From Prochlorococcus sp. AG-347-K15 (GTDB taxonomy: Bacteria; Cyanobacteriota; Cyanobacteriia; PCC-6307; Cyanobiaceae): a stretch of 64,000 bases of DNA. A program made the translations under genes and the position numbers. The stretch is from positions 1-64,000 of the forward strand of contig QCCC01000004.1 in the NCBI GenBank assembly GCA_003281415.1, in the 5' to 3' direction. Each line of letters starts with the position of its first letter. The stretch's first letter is position 1. This document shows positions 14,561 to 20,740 of this stretch, one piece after another. The notes beneath the pieces are model-generated. The model had not been told where the DNA came from, did no database searches, and saw only the letters and a list, made by a program, of their open reading frames with translations.

Positions 14561-15346
14561 TTATTTGCGAAGCTTAGGAATCAAAAGAGATGCAACACAA
14601 ATAACACTAATTGCAGGCCCAGGCGAAAGATTAAAGACTATAGAGAGAATAAATCCCAGAAGTGAGATGCATAATCCAAAAAATGAAGACCTCATCATTG
14701 CAATTCTTAAACTATGAGCCTTATTTAGCCCTAACAAAGTTGGAGTAGAAAGAAGAGCAATTACAAGAATTACTCCCACTGCTGACATTGAACTAACAAT
14801 TACTAATGCCGTTGTAAAACTCAAAGCAAGATTTAATAAAGAAACGTTTATACCACTTGCGGATGCACCTTCTGGATCTAATCCAACATAAACAACCTTT
14901 TCATATCCAAAAGTCATTAAAATTATAAATACTAAAAATGCAATTATTGTTCTAAGTAAATCTCCAAAATTTGCTGTCAACAAATCTCCAAATAATACTG
15001 CCTCCAAATCAATCCTTATTCCGAGGAGAGGAATAATAAGGACTCCAAACCCAAGCATTCCAGCGAGAATAGTATTCATAACTGCTTCATAATTTTCACT
15101 TTTTCTATTAGTTAAACTTTCCGCAATTACTGAGCCCAGAAGACCACTTATAACGCCACCAATTGAGGGATGAATTCCAAGCGCTAATGCGAGAGCAAGT
15201 CCAGGCAAAACACAATGAGAGATTAAATTAACTTGTAATAATCTCTTATGGGTGATTAATACAGTTCCCATAGCTGGGCATAAGATCCCGGAAAATATAG
15301 TTATTATTAATGGAACCAACCACCAGTTGTTATTAATAAAAGACAT
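14561..15346 (-). CDS. znuB: zinc/manganese ABC transporter permease (ZnuB-type)
   Basis: ABC-3 family permease: CPAMGTVLITHKRLLQVNLISHCVLPGLALA..., YVGLDPEGASASGI; adjacent to zur/znuC/znuA. Confidence 0.92.
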   Translation of the reverse strand: MSFINNNWWLVPLIITIFSGILCPAMGTVLITHKRLLQVNLISHCVLPGLALALALGIHPSIGGVISGLLGSVIAESLTNRKSENYEAVMNTILAGMLGFGVLIIPLLGIRIDLEAVLFGDLLTANFGDLLRTIIAFLVFIILMTFGYEKVVYVGLDPEGASASGINVSLLNLALSFTTALVIVSSMSAVGVILVIALLSTPTLLGLNKAHSLRIAMMRSSFFGLCISLLGFILSIVFNLSPGPAISVICVASLLIPKLRK

Positions 15347-15402
15347 TATTCGAAAGATTCGGTATGATCAAAAATACGAGACAAAAAAAGATTTTGGAAA
15401 CA

Positions 15403-15798
15403 ATGGTGACTAAGTCTGACATTACCAAAAGACAAGAACAACTTCTTGAAGAACTTAATAAATGCGAGGATGAATTGAGCGGTCAAGAATTGCATAGGCA
15501 GTTGATCACAAAAGGCAAATCCATGGGGTTGACCACTGTTTATAGAAATCTGCAAATCTTGATAAAGCATGGATTAATTCGTTCCAGACATCTCCCAACA
15601 GGAGAGGTTCTTTACACTCCCGTAGACAGAGATATTCATCATTTGACCTGCGTTCAATGCGGAGAGACGTCGAAAATGGAAGGTTGTCCTGTTAAAAATA
15701 TTCATGCCCCTAAAAAAAATCCAAGAAAGTTTCAACTTTTGTTTCATACACTCGAATATTTCGGCCTTTGCCAAAACTGTTATCAAGCTCAAAATTAA
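15403..15798 (+). CDS. zur: Fur-family regulator, probably Zur
   Basis: Fur-type winged helix TTVYRNLQILIKHGLI, HHLTCVQCG and CxxC motifs; inside Znu locus; start chosen at second Met (ORF opens at 15364). Confidence 0.85.
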   Translation: MVTKSDITKRQEQLLEELNKCEDELSGQELHRQLITKGKSMGLTTVYRNLQILIKHGLIRSRHLPTGEVLYTPVDRDIHHLTCVQCGETSKMEGCPVKNIHAPKKNPRKFQLLFHTLEYFGLCQNCYQAQN

Positions 15799-15811: not shown

Positions 15812-16582
15812 CTAATCACAGAAATTATTTTCCTTTATAGAGCTTATGTTTATCGCATCTAATTTATCTTTTATTTGATCAGGACTACCAACTGCTAAAA
15901 CACTTTTATCAAGAACGATTACTTGATCGTAGTTATTTAGAGACTCGCCCCAATCATGGCTACTTACTAGCAAAGAAAGTCCCGCATCTGCGAGTTGACG
16001 AACAATTTTCAGGAAGTCCTCTTTTGCGGGGGGATCCAATGCCGCACAAGGTTCATCCAGAAGAAATATTTTTGCAGGGGACATAAGAGTTTTTGCTAAT
16101 AGAGCTCTTTGTTGCTGTCCTCCTGAAAGAGAATCGAGTCTTCTATTAGCTAAATTAGCAATTCCTACTCTTTGCATTGTCGCTTCTAATTCACAACATT
16201 TATTAATCCAAGAATTAGGATATTCTAAAAGAGCCTTGATTTGAAAGGGGTTATTACTTCTTGATTTTGAATACTTTATTTGACCAAGAGATACCAATTT
16301 TTCAACTGTAATGGGAAACTTCCAATTCATAGAACTTCTTTGAGGCATAAGTGCCACTAGAGCTCTAGATCTATATAAATTTTCACCGTCTATTTTTATT
16401 TCGCCTTTATCTGGAGTATTTTGTCCTTGCAATATCCTCAAAAGAGTGGATTTACCGGCACCATTTGGACCTACTAGCGCTGTTAGAGTTCCAGGTTTAA
16501 TCTCAACAGATACCTTATTTAAAGCTGGCTTACTTTTTTCTGTGTATGCAAATGTTAAATTTTCAGCGACTAAAGTAGCCAT
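15812..16582 (-). CDS. znuC: zinc ABC transporter ATPase
   Basis: Walker A GPNGAGKST, LSGGQQQRALLAKTL, Walker B IFLLDEPCAALD. Confidence 0.93.
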   Translation of the reverse strand: MATLVAENLTFAYTEKSKPALNKVSVEIKPGTLTALVGPNGAGKSTLLRILQGQNTPDKGEIKIDGENLYRSRALVALMPQRSSMNWKFPITVEKLVSLGQIKYSKSRSNNPFQIKALLEYPNSWINKCCELEATMQRVGIANLANRRLDSLSGGQQQRALLAKTLMSPAKIFLLDEPCAALDPPAKEDFLKIVRQLADAGLSLLVSSHDWGESLNNYDQVIVLDKSVLAVGSPDQIKDKLDAINISSIKENNFCD

Positions 16583-16667: not shown

Positions 16668-16699
16668 TTGTCAGCTGTAATGAAAATGATTATCATTTT
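16668..16699 (+). promoter_or_regulatory. znuA promoter with overlapping Zur-like operator
   Basis: TTGTCA-17 nt-TATCAT; perfect palindrome AAAATGAT-T-ATCATTTT at 16683-16699 covers the -10 region. Confidence 0.72.
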
Positions 16700-16719: not shown

Positions 16720-18261
16720 ATGTCAATTTTTAAAAGACTTTTATCAAATAAAAAAGTTTCAAGTAAGTCAATTATTAAAAATTCCGTAATCGCTGGAACG
16801 ATTATATTTTCTGGTTTTGGGCAGGATGTAATGGCTAAAGGAAAGTCATACGTAGCAGTAGAACCACTAGTTTGTGATTTAGTTAAATCAATTGCGTTAC
16901 CATCTGACGAAGTTACATGCTTAGTAGATAGAAAACAGGATGTTCATGACTTAAAGATCAATCCAAGACAAGCTCAATTACTAAATAGCGCAGACAAAGT
17001 ATTCACTCTTGGCAAAGAAATGACTCCAAGTATGAGAAATTGGGAAAGTAAAAAGAATACTGTTGTTGTAGGTGTTAGTGCAATAGACGTAGATGATCAT
17101 TCTGATCATGAAGGTCACGATGACCACTCAGACCATGGCGGACATGACGATCATGCTGAACATTCAGCTAAGGTAGATGATCATTCTGATCATGGAGGTC
17201 ATGATGATCATTCAGACCATGGTGGACATGATGATCATGCTGAGGGTGCTTTCGAATGGGCAGGTAAATTCCAGCTATCTAAGGGTTCATACAAATGGTC
17301 ATTTGAAAAAGTCGATGGCGAATATGCAGATCCTGCAATGAAGATGGTGATTCTCAAATCTAATGACATAGAAGGGTCTGAAGATTTAGCCAAAGAATTA
17401 TTAGGATCTAAAGACTCAATAAGCAGAAAAAATGATGGAACTTTGATAGCAAGTAATAAAGCTTTTGTTCTTAACTTTGATCAAAGAAAAGAAAGTACTG
17501 TTTTTAACGTGGATATCAAAGAAGATGGTCAATATATATTTTTTACTGAACACATGCCTTTTGAGTTTGAAGCAACTCAACACTTTTTTAAAGACGTTTC
17601 AAATAGTGATGTAGAACCAATAGCACAAGTTCCAGACGAAGGAGAGGGGCATCATCATCATGACCATGGAGGTCTAGATCCACATGTATGGCATGATCCA
17701 CATAACATCATAAAAATGGGAGATCTTATAAGCAAAAGTTTAAAGAAAGATATTTCAGTTTTTAATAGAGGTGACAGAAAACTAATTAATGAAAGATTCG
17801 AAAAAGCTGATTCTCTCTTAGAAGGCTTAGATAGTTGGATCGTCGAACAAGTAAGCTCTATTCCTGAGGAAAACAGAGTAATTGTCTCTAAACACAAAGC
17901 AATGGAATACTACGGGGATGCATTTGGTTTTGAAACCATTAGTTTACTTGACTTTCTTGGAGACTCCTCAAGCTTAAGGCCAGACAACATAAGTTCTACT
18001 TTAAAAATGTTAGATGAAGAGAAAGTTCAGGCAATATTTCCTGAACAAATTCCAGCATCTAAGTTATTAAGGAACTTAAGTAGACAAAGTTCAGTTCCTT
18101 TAGCTTCTAATCAAATATTCGTTGATGGATTGATGATGGATGGTAATACGGTTTCAGTAGCCGTACACAACACTTGTACAATTGTTGATTCATTAGGTGG
18201 AAGCTGTGATAAAGAATCTGGCTCCAATCTTGAGTCTGAATGGTACAAACTTTCAGATTAA
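16720..18261 (+). CDS. znuA: zinc ABC transporter substrate-binding protein with His-rich loop and inserted domain
   Basis: Signal peptide, VAVEPLVCDLVKSIALPSDEVTCLV, DPHVWHDPHN, VSKHKAMEYYGDAFGFETISL; DHSDHGGHDDH repeats. Confidence 0.92.
   Translation: MSIFKRLLSNKKVSSKSIIKNSVIAGTIIFSGFGQDVMAKGKSYVAVEPLVCDLVKSIALPSDEVTCLVDRKQDVHDLKINPRQAQLLNSADKVFTLGKEMTPSMRNWESKKNTVVVGVSAIDVDDHSDHEGHDDHSDHGGHDDHAEHSAKVDDHSDHGGHDDHSDHGGHDDHAEGAFEWAGKFQLSKGSYKWSFEKVDGEYADPAMKMVILKSNDIEGSEDLAKELLGSKDSISRKNDGTLIASNKAFVLNFDQRKESTVFNVDIKEDGQYIFFTEHMPFEFEATQHFFKDVSNSDVEPIAQVPDEGEGHHHHDHGGLDPHVWHDPHNIIKMGDLISKSLKKDISVFNRGDRKLINERFEKADSLLEGLDSWIVEQVSSIPEENRVIVSKHKAMEYYGDAFGFETISLLDFLGDSSSLRPDNISSTLKMLDEEKVQAIFPEQIPASKLLRNLSRQSSVPLASNQIFVDGLMMDGNTVSVAVHNTCTIVDSLGGSCDKESGSNLESEWYKLSD
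17089..17247 (+). repeat. 84-bp tandem duplication encoding His/Asp-rich VDDHSDHxGHDDHSDHGGHDDHAE
   Basis: Copy 1 from 17089, copy 2 from 17173; near-identical codon order with mostly silent differences. Confidence 0.85.
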
Positions 18262-18338
18262 ATTTTTCTAATAAAAACGGTTTTCATTTCTTATGGTTAC
18301 TATTATTAAACTATTGTTTATTTGGTAAAAATCATTAA

Positions 18339-19694
18339 ATGAGCATCAAAGATAAAGTTCCAGTTACTATTCTCACTGGATTTCTAGGTTCAGGGAAAAC
18401 TACTTTACTTAATAGAATACTAAGTGAAGAGCACGGGAAAAGAATAGCCGTAATTGAGAATGAATACGGTGAAGTAGGGATAGATCAAGGGCTCGTAATT
18501 AATGCCGATGAAGAAGTGTTTGAGATGTCAAACGGGTGCATTTGTTGTACTGTTCGCGGTGATTTAATAAGAGTCCTTGGCAACCTTATGAAAAGAAGAG
18601 ATAAGTTTGACTATGTTTTAGTAGAAACGACCGGATTAGCAGATCCTGGGCCAGTCGCGCAGACATTTTTCATGGATGAAGAAATTAGTTCTGAATTTAC
18701 TCTTGATGGAATTGTAACTTTAGTTGATGCTGCTCATATTGATCAGCAGCTAGGAAGAAGTGATGAAAGTTCAGAACAAGTTGCGTTTGCAGATGTTCTT
18801 GTCCTTAATAAAACTGATTTAGTCTCTGATGATGCACTAGATACTCTTGAATCGAGATTGAGAGATATGAACCGAATGACTCGAATCATTAGAGCCGAGA
18901 ATGCCCAAGTACCAATCGAAACAGTCCTAAATCTAAGTGCATTTGATCTCGATCAAATCCTTAAACGCAGACCAACATTTCTTGAACCAGAATATCCTTT
19001 TGAATGGACAGGTGTTTACGACCTTGCTGCAGGTAAATATGAATTAATGCTAGAAGAAGGTCCCGATCCAGAAATGTCATTAGTAGCTTTCGCTAATCAA
19101 GGTGAGAGTGAAGAAGAACTTAAAGATGGTGCTGAATCCTGCGTAAGACTTTATGCAGAAAAAGCTAAAAGCATAGAACCTGGGAATATCATTCCATTTG
19201 GAGAACATATAAACCTTAAATTGGAGGATAAAGGAAATAAATCATTCATATTAATTATCGAAAAGGGATCAAAGATAGGTTTATATACACAGCACACTGC
19301 TGAAGAATTCAATATGAAAATCATTAAAAGTGAAGACAATAATTCAAAAGAGATCCCATTTAATATTGAAAGATTCTGGCAAGCCGAGCACGAGCACGAT
19401 GATGAAGTAACGTCCATTGCAATTGAACGATTTGGAGATGTTGATCCAGAAAAACTTAATACTTGGTTGGGCAGACTTCTTTCTGAAAAAGGAGTGGATA
19501 TATTTAGAACTAAAGGTTTCATTAGCTACTCAGGCAACCCACAGAGAATAGTTTTCCAAGGGGTACATATGTTATTTACAGCGCAACCTGATAAGGAATG
19601 GGGTAACGAACCTCGTAGAAACCAACTTGTTTTTATAGGTAGAAATTTGGACGAGAAAGAGATGAAAGAAGGTTTTGAAAAATGCCTGATATAG
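18339..19694 (+). CDS. COG0523 (CobW/ZNG1-type) GTPase, putative zinc metallochaperone
   Basis: GFLGSGKTT, CxCC motif GCICCTVRGDL, VLNKTDL; C-terminal CobW_C. Confidence 0.93.
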   Translation: MSIKDKVPVTILTGFLGSGKTTLLNRILSEEHGKRIAVIENEYGEVGIDQGLVINADEEVFEMSNGCICCTVRGDLIRVLGNLMKRRDKFDYVLVETTGLADPGPVAQTFFMDEEISSEFTLDGIVTLVDAAHIDQQLGRSDESSEQVAFADVLVLNKTDLVSDDALDTLESRLRDMNRMTRIIRAENAQVPIETVLNLSAFDLDQILKRRPTFLEPEYPFEWTGVYDLAAGKYELMLEEGPDPEMSLVAFANQGESEEELKDGAESCVRLYAEKAKSIEPGNIIPFGEHINLKLEDKGNKSFILIIEKGSKIGLYTQHTAEEFNMKIIKSEDNNSKEIPFNIERFWQAEHEHDDEVTSIAIERFGDVDPEKLNTWLGRLLSEKGVDIFRTKGFISYSGNPQRIVFQGVHMLFTAQPDKEWGNEPRRNQLVFIGRNLDEKEMKEGFEKCLI

Positions 19695-20740
19695 AATCAT
19701 TTAGCCCAAGAGGCATGTTCCACGAGGGATGGACAGCTGAAGTTAATGATTATGCCATAGTTTGTGGTTGGGCTACTAAAGGAAAGTTATTCATTGTTGG
19801 GGATGTAGCAGGAGGTATTTTTGCCTTTGAAGGAGATACTGGGAAAATTATTTGGAAAAAAGAAAATACACACTCTGCTGGTCTATTAGCAATGTCCATT
19901 CATCCAGAAGGAGAGATTTTTGCAACTTCCGGTCAAGATGGAAATATTCAAATATATAATTGTCACGAAGGTAAAGTAATTAAAACACTTAATCTTGGTA
20001 AGGCTTGGATAGAGCATCTTAAGTGGTCAAATGATGGCTTATTTCTTGCAGCAGCTTCTTCAAAAAAAGTATATGTTTTTAATGAAATTGGTGAAGAAAA
20101 ATGGGTATCAGATGATCATCCAAGCACAGTGAGTGCAATAAAATGGTCAAATAATAATGAGCTAGCTACAGCCTGCTACGGGAGAGTAACATTCTTTGAC
20201 ATAGTAAATAATAAAACGAATCAAAAGCTCGAGTGGCAAGGATCATTAGTCTCAATGGAATTAAGTCCTGATGGTGATATAGTCGCTTGCGGGAGTCAAG
20301 ACAATTCAGTTCATTTTTGGAGAAGATCAACCGGAATGGATGCTGAAATGACAGGATACCCAGGAAAACCTAGTCACCTTTCTTTTGACGATAGTGGAAA
20401 ATTACTGGCAACTAGTGGCAGTGAAAGAATTACAGTGTGGAGCTTTATAGGTGACGGTCCCGAGGGGACTATGCCGGGAGAACTATGGCACCATACCGAA
20501 CCTATTTCTAGCCTAGCCTTTTCAAATAAAGGCATGCTTGTAGCTTCCGGATCTAGAGATGGTTCTGTTGTCGCAAGTTTTCTAAAAAAAGACGGTAATG
20601 GTGACCCAGTTGGGGCTGCATTCGCAGGCGATTTAGTGGGTGCACTTTCGTGGAGACCTGATGATTGTGCACTAGCTGCAGTTAACGCAAAAGGTGTAGT
20701 AAATGTTTGGAAATTTAAAGTTCGTACTAATTCTTTTTGA
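19682..20740 (+). CDS. WD40-repeat protein
   Basis: Repeated LAMSIHPEGEIFATSGQDGNIQIYN / LSPDGDIVACGSQDNSVHFW / LAFSNKGMLVASGSRDGSV units; 13-bp overlap with upstream CDS. Confidence 0.9.
   Translation: MPDIESFSPRGMFHEGWTAEVNDYAIVCGWATKGKLFIVGDVAGGIFAFEGDTGKIIWKKENTHSAGLLAMSIHPEGEIFATSGQDGNIQIYNCHEGKVIKTLNLGKAWIEHLKWSNDGLFLAAASSKKVYVFNEIGEEKWVSDDHPSTVSAIKWSNNNELATACYGRVTFFDIVNNKTNQKLEWQGSLVSMELSPDGDIVACGSQDNSVHFWRRSTGMDAEMTGYPGKPSHLSFDDSGKLLATSGSERITVWSFIGDGPEGTMPGELWHHTEPISSLAFSNKGMLVASGSRDGSVVASFLKKDGNGDPVGAAFAGDLVGALSWRPDDCALAAVNAKGVVNVWKFKVRTNSF

Follow-up and report, generated by a model that had tools for sequence, protein, structure and literature searches.

A predicted beta-sandwich domain shared by a ZnuA-type zinc-binding protein and the adjacent COG0523 GTPase of Prochlorococcus is probably a reusable metal-handling part

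The window (the whole 64-kb stretch of Prochlorococcus DNA analysed here) contains a zinc-uptake cluster comprising znuB and znuC on the minus strand, a FUR-family gene, znuA, a COG0523 GTPase gene and a gene for a WD40 protein. The genes and the features within them are as follows.

14561..15346, minus strand: ZnuB-type permease (open reading frame and sequence)
15364..15798, plus strand: FUR-family regulator (PF01475, E 2e-19; cluster position)
15812..16582, minus strand: ZnuC-type ABC ATPase, divergent from znuA (open reading frame and sequence)
16683..16699, plus strand: perfect Zur/Fur-type operator palindrome AAAATGATTATCATTTT, between znuC and znuA
16720..18261, plus strand: ZnuA-type zinc-binding protein of an ABC transporter, 513 aa (PF01297, E 9.7e-42, in two stretches)
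17093..17241, plus strand: His/Asp-rich tract of ZnuA, upstream of the domain (sequence)
17242..17628, plus strand: shared domain, ZnuA copy (FEWAGKF...DPAM...FFTEHMPFEFEA...EPIAQ; homology searches; model pLDDT 73)
17650..17667, plus strand: HHHHDH tract of ZnuA, immediately past the domain (sequence)
18339..19694, plus strand: COG0523 (CobW/YjiA-type) G3E GTPase, 451 aa (PF02492, E 2.1e-61; PF07683, the CobW_C domain, E 4.1e-25)
18978..about 19373, plus strand: shared domain, COG0523 copy (FLEPEYPFEWTGVY...GPDPEM...LYTQHTAEEF...; homology searches; model pLDDT 60)
19389..19403, plus strand: H-x-H-D-D motif at the C-terminal edge of the COG0523-copy domain and the start of CobW_C (aligned columns)
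19682..20740, plus strand: WD40 beta-propeller protein (PF00400, E 1.9e-28)

The znu cluster lies under a predicted Zur-type operator. Its palindrome is the only zero-mismatch match within the window and precedes znuA in every one of the 62 Prochlorococcus loci tested, and the FUR-family regulator is probably Zur. A study of Synechococcus WH8102 (PMC9337993) describes a Zur box at the equivalent position and a znu cluster, synw0968-0973, that is Zur-repressed and de-repressed without Zur. The arrangement in the window corresponds to this cluster, with synw0972 and synw0973 as the candidates for the COG0523 gene. The ZnuA protein begins with a stretch that reads like a signal peptide (MSIFKRLLSNKKVSSKSIIKNSVIAGTIIFSGFGQDVMA), and the G domain of the COG0523 protein carries a P-loop (GFLGSGKTT), a CICC motif (NGCICC) and NKTD. 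The start codon of the WD40 gene overlaps the end and stop region of the COG0523 gene (19682-19694), which suggests translational coupling. Two further observations concern related loci. A conserved reading frame of 108-110 aa directly follows znuA in Synechococcus-type loci (L152:9169-9495 and L150:6342-6674) and is absent from the window; the copy tested had no Pfam match. An 873-aa ZnuA frame in genome G078 (L150:6724-9345) includes a stretch of undetermined bases and has one half repeated, and is probably an assembly artefact.

The original prediction, made from the window alone, held that a segment of ~105 aa is common to the ZnuA-type protein and the COG0523 protein, and the two inserts are indeed homologous. 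A single BLASTP comparison aligned ~110 residues at 24% identity (E 4e-5), and the Smith-Waterman score of 69 lay above every one of 5000 shuffles (0/5000; maximum 68, mean 30). Profile-profile comparison, the HMM-HMM check proposed along with the prediction, returned related inserts with a probability of 98.6 (E 5.9e-16). A profile built only from COG0523 inserts found the ZnuA insert among the window reading frames (E 7e-14), each insert was the best non-self match of the other among the 77 window reading frames, and the two copies matched each other reciprocally across 151 Cyanobiaceae genomes. Chance similarity is ruled out by the BLASTP, shuffle and profile results. The whole genome holds exactly two copies, one in each of these proteins, and its other full-length COG0523 protein gave no match to the domain. 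The predicted positions were right to within one base (FEW has its Phe at 17251 in ZnuA and, in the COG0523 protein, at 18999). The predicted segment is thus real, but the domain is slightly longer than proposed, at ~115-130 residues, with its C-terminal edge reaching the H-x-H.

That the shared segment stands apart from the core folds of both hosts was borne out by structural homologues: PDB relatives of ZnuA and of the COG0523 protein align on both flanks and skip the insert. YjiA (1nij) aligns with the COG0523 protein over residues 7-214 and 354-446, so that the insert, about 139 extra residues, falls at the YjiA 214/221 junction (with only YjiA 215-220 between) and separates the G domain from CobW_C. 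Metal-binding SBPs align with ZnuA over residues 36-110 and 313-476, which means that the insert and its flanking His tracts fill the His-rich loop. Both insertion points fit a metal role.

Known relatives of the two hosts resemble them outside the insert. YjiA, ZNG1/CBWD and Cupriavidus CobW2 have, like the window protein, a G domain with the CICC motif followed by CobW_C, but the junction that holds a domain of ~125 residues in the window protein is bare or a His-rich linker in these relatives; in Cupriavidus CobW2, an internal His-rich coil has been reported at this site (PMC11340326). Zinc SBPs of cluster A-I, such as the ZnuA proteins of Synechocystis and E. coli, likewise belong to PF01297, have a His-rich loop between the lobes and are encoded beside znuBC and a FUR-family gene. 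The window ZnuA has both the His-rich loop and the location beside znuBC and a zur-like gene; ZnuA proteins of its type differ in that the loop holds an extra folded domain, and sometimes two in tandem. According to the accessible part of Haas et al. 2009 (PMC2770081), COG0523 subfamily 5 clusters with WD40 and znuABC genes, and by this clustering the window protein probably belongs to subfamily 5; that part of the paper makes no mention of an insert in COG0523 proteins.

The domain is without an entry in the libraries searched. Neither insert matched Pfam or NCBIfam, 18 diverse members searched against Pfam gave a best E of 0.017 with no family common to several of them, and PDB sequences yielded no credible relative. 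In the literature searched, which largely excluded subscription papers, neither the insert nor its presence in ZnuA or haloarchaeal proteins is described. Structure models were obtained for the ZnuA insert from a ZnuA-only alignment (pLDDT 73, pTM 0.66) and for the COG0523 insert from a mixed alignment (pLDDT 60, pTM 0.54). At this low-to-moderate confidence, both models have the same order of elements (b-b-b-a-b-b-b-b-b). These weak models matched jelly-roll carbohydrate-binding modules (CBM35-like), GOLD domains and Eph receptor domains marginally, with Z of at most 5.3 (2.9-5.2 for GOLD and jelly-roll CBM domains; best values 4.1 and 5.3 for the two models) and Foldseek E of at least 0.015. 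GOLD and jelly-roll CBM domains resemble both models marginally and without sequence similarity, too weakly to assign membership; because the models are weak, the lack of a strong PDB match is no sign of a new fold. Sandwiches of the jelly-roll CBM, GOLD and Eph receptor types are best known for binding ligands or proteins, not for metal sites.

A known zinc-related protein, ZepA of Anabaena, can be set beside the domain by description: it is secreted, has an immunoglobulin-like beta-sandwich with putative zinc-site His and belongs to the Zur regulon (PMC10957091). It differs in being a two-domain protein of its own with PEP-CTERM, and no archaeal homologues of it were reported (PMC10957091), whereas the domain described here is present in haloarchaea.

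Conservation was evaluated over 23 representatives sharing under 80% identity, with residues counted from 18978. E9, G19, D30, H106, E110 and F111, which include the HxxxEF motif, are invariant in 23 of 23, and W10, G12, L16 and P31 are nearly so; the conserved His and Glu that had been singled out beforehand are therefore among the invariant residues. Both columns of the H-x-H that closes the domain are His in 22 of 23. Copies outside COG0523 proteins all have His on both sides, densely in most ZnuA proteins and sparsely in some others, and COG0523 copies have, in place of long His tracts, only the conserved H-x-H-D motif at the end. Single-domain ZnuA proteins (n=63) carry 5-25 His upstream of the domain (median 16), while nine Prochlorococcus ZnuA proteins of one lineage, with two domains in tandem, have 1 His upstream of the first. 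These nine sequences suggest, for that lineage, that a second domain copy can stand in for the His tract. Tandem-domain ZnuA proteins of 615-623 aa were seen at loci L024, L027, L056, L078, L079 and L151.

Among the 151 Cyanobiaceae genomes searched, the COG0523 copy occurs in 38 and is joined by the ZnuA copy in 30 of those; the ZnuA copy alone occurs in 0 of 151, the COG0523 copy alone in 8 of 38, and 113 show no copy. This co-occurrence has a hypergeometric probability of 1e-24 with kinship ignored. The closest named records, from Prochlorococcus, are 98-100% identical in the COG0523-copy domain. In cyanobacteria beyond Cyanobiaceae, the domain was found only in COG0523 proteins, in four genomes of another class, and in most of these a WD40 or WD40-like reading frame follows the COG0523 gene. 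Outside cyanobacteria, the hosts are more varied. Haloarchaeal ZnuA proteins with the domain occur on plasmid records of Haloarcula, Halorubrum and Halorientalis, and stand-alone copies, which the original prediction had suggested looking for, were found in haloarchaeal proteins with twin-arginine and lipobox-like N-termini. One stand-alone copy, with a lipoprotein-like N-terminus, lies directly 3' of the urease genes of Natrinema versiforme (L123:5875-6426), a possible link to nickel. In Alicyclobacillus, a membrane protein (L122:5788-6699) whose gene adjoins that of a metal-sensitive regulator carries the domain in a His-containing loop. An HSILPDHW motif in the first segment of this protein recalls NicO-type transporters, although Pfam gave no match. 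Plasmids of Pantoea and Paraburkholderia encode COG0523 proteins with the domain, followed in both intact cases by a WD40 protein. A gene for a NicO nickel transporter follows one of the domain-bearing COG0523 genes. Broken copies were also seen: Haloarcula halophila has an interrupted second copy (NZ_CP119561.1, L121, 362281-362690), and the COG0523 copy of Pantoea soli (L130, 5001-5366) is interrupted too. Searches of the plasmid collection with several different members converged on one small set of records, and protein scans and a pattern scan of viral collections found no relative of the domain. Since the contig scan gave only close relatives, nearly all Prochlorococcus, and the rest are plasmid records, the distribution outside cyanobacteria is a lower bound.

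The common factor across these hosts is transition-metal handling together with His-rich neighbours, not one partner or compartment. Because the domain recurs in several kinds of metal protein, mostly beside His-rich stretches, it is probably a reusable metal-handling part. Our best explanation, to which we give a probability of about one half, is that it is a mobile beta-sandwich of ~115-130 residues acting as a metal-capture and relay module at or next to flexible His-rich segments. The flexible His/Asp tracts would collect Zn(II), and in some hosts perhaps Ni or Co, and the folded domain, through E9, D30, H106 and E110, would keep or position the metal, or a tract loaded with it, close to the site of the host. 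Outside the membrane that site would be the cleft of ZnuA, and inside it the metal/GTPase site of the COG0523 protein, so that capture and relay would act in cis. The homology, the hosts, the insertion points, the invariant residues, the operator and the gene cluster are observed; metal binding, any sensing role, the direction of transfer and the identity of the metal we infer. The metal is probably Zn, perhaps Ni or Co, and zinc specificity is not to be assumed because the urease and NicO neighbours point to nickel. Against a metal module stand the models themselves, which at pLDDT 60 and 73 are too weak to place the invariant residues together. The closest folds, with their reputation as ligand or protein binders, and the COG0523 copies, with an H-x-H in place of long His tracts, also count against it.

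The main rival, which we consider unlikely, is that the sandwich docks its host onto a partner and that the invariant residues form the binding face. The partner would be the WD40 protein or a client enzyme for the COG0523 protein, and the permease or an outer-membrane partner for ZnuA. The predicted jelly-roll or GOLD-like fold belongs to a class often used for binding, and COG0523 genes with the insert have a WD40 gene as neighbour in several phyla, including in Pantoea, in Paraburkholderia and in cyanobacteria outside the lineage of the window; PMC2770081 already describes clustering of COG0523 and WD40 genes. ZnuA, the stand-alone proteins and the membrane protein, however, have no WD40 counterpart in their contexts, and what stays constant is metal handling with His, not a single partner. 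We regard as improbable a purely structural role, in which the domain would do no more than rigidify or space out long flexible loops and shield them from proteolysis, with the invariant residues serving as folding contacts. In its favour, the domain is inserted into loops of unrelated hosts, and many ZnuA and COG0523 proteins work without it, as the 113 Cyanobiaceae genomes without a copy illustrate. Spacing alone, however, hardly accounts for polar residues (E, D, H and E) that are invariant from archaea to bacteria, or for domain proteins that stand alone.

As originally predicted, the domain sits in metal-handling proteins that work on either side of the membrane, ZnuA outside and COG0523 inside. 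A hand-over between the two copies, which had been proposed with it, is not supported. Such a scheme would have the copies evolve as a matched pair, with zinc passed from ZnuA to the COG0523 protein through identical modules. It draws on the presence of the COG0523 copy in 30 of 30 Cyanobiaceae genomes with a ZnuA copy and on the usual adjacency of the two genes, but we judge it very improbable. The membrane separates the copies, and each can be found alone: 8 of the 38 Cyanobiaceae genomes with a copy, like the Pantoea and Paraburkholderia plasmids, have only the COG0523 one, and haloarchaeal loci have ZnuA with the domain beside two COG0523 proteins free of it. The domain tree, moreover, groups copies by host protein and not by organism, with the COG0523 copies forming one group (support 95/91) and the deeper joins unsure on long branches. 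The idea that the COG0523 insert was recently copied into the adjacent znuA was weakly rejected (AU p 0.047), a result that is unsure given the long branches.

Returning to the metal-capture and relay module, we suggest only tentatively a wider history, in which a single metal-binding beta-sandwich, present in bacteria and haloarchaea, entered uptake binders, a membrane protein and COG0523 chaperones on separate occasions as a common metal-loading module serving both sides of the membrane. For zinc entry and sorting in picocyanobacteria, which live at ultra-low ocean zinc, the domain, shared by the zinc-binding protein, a putative zinc metallochaperone and unrelated metal proteins of archaea, would represent a portable metal-handling part in which a few residues (E, D, H and E) stand out. 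'Hypothetical proteins' that consist of the domain on its own, such as the one that follows a haloarchaeal urease cluster, might be read in the same way.
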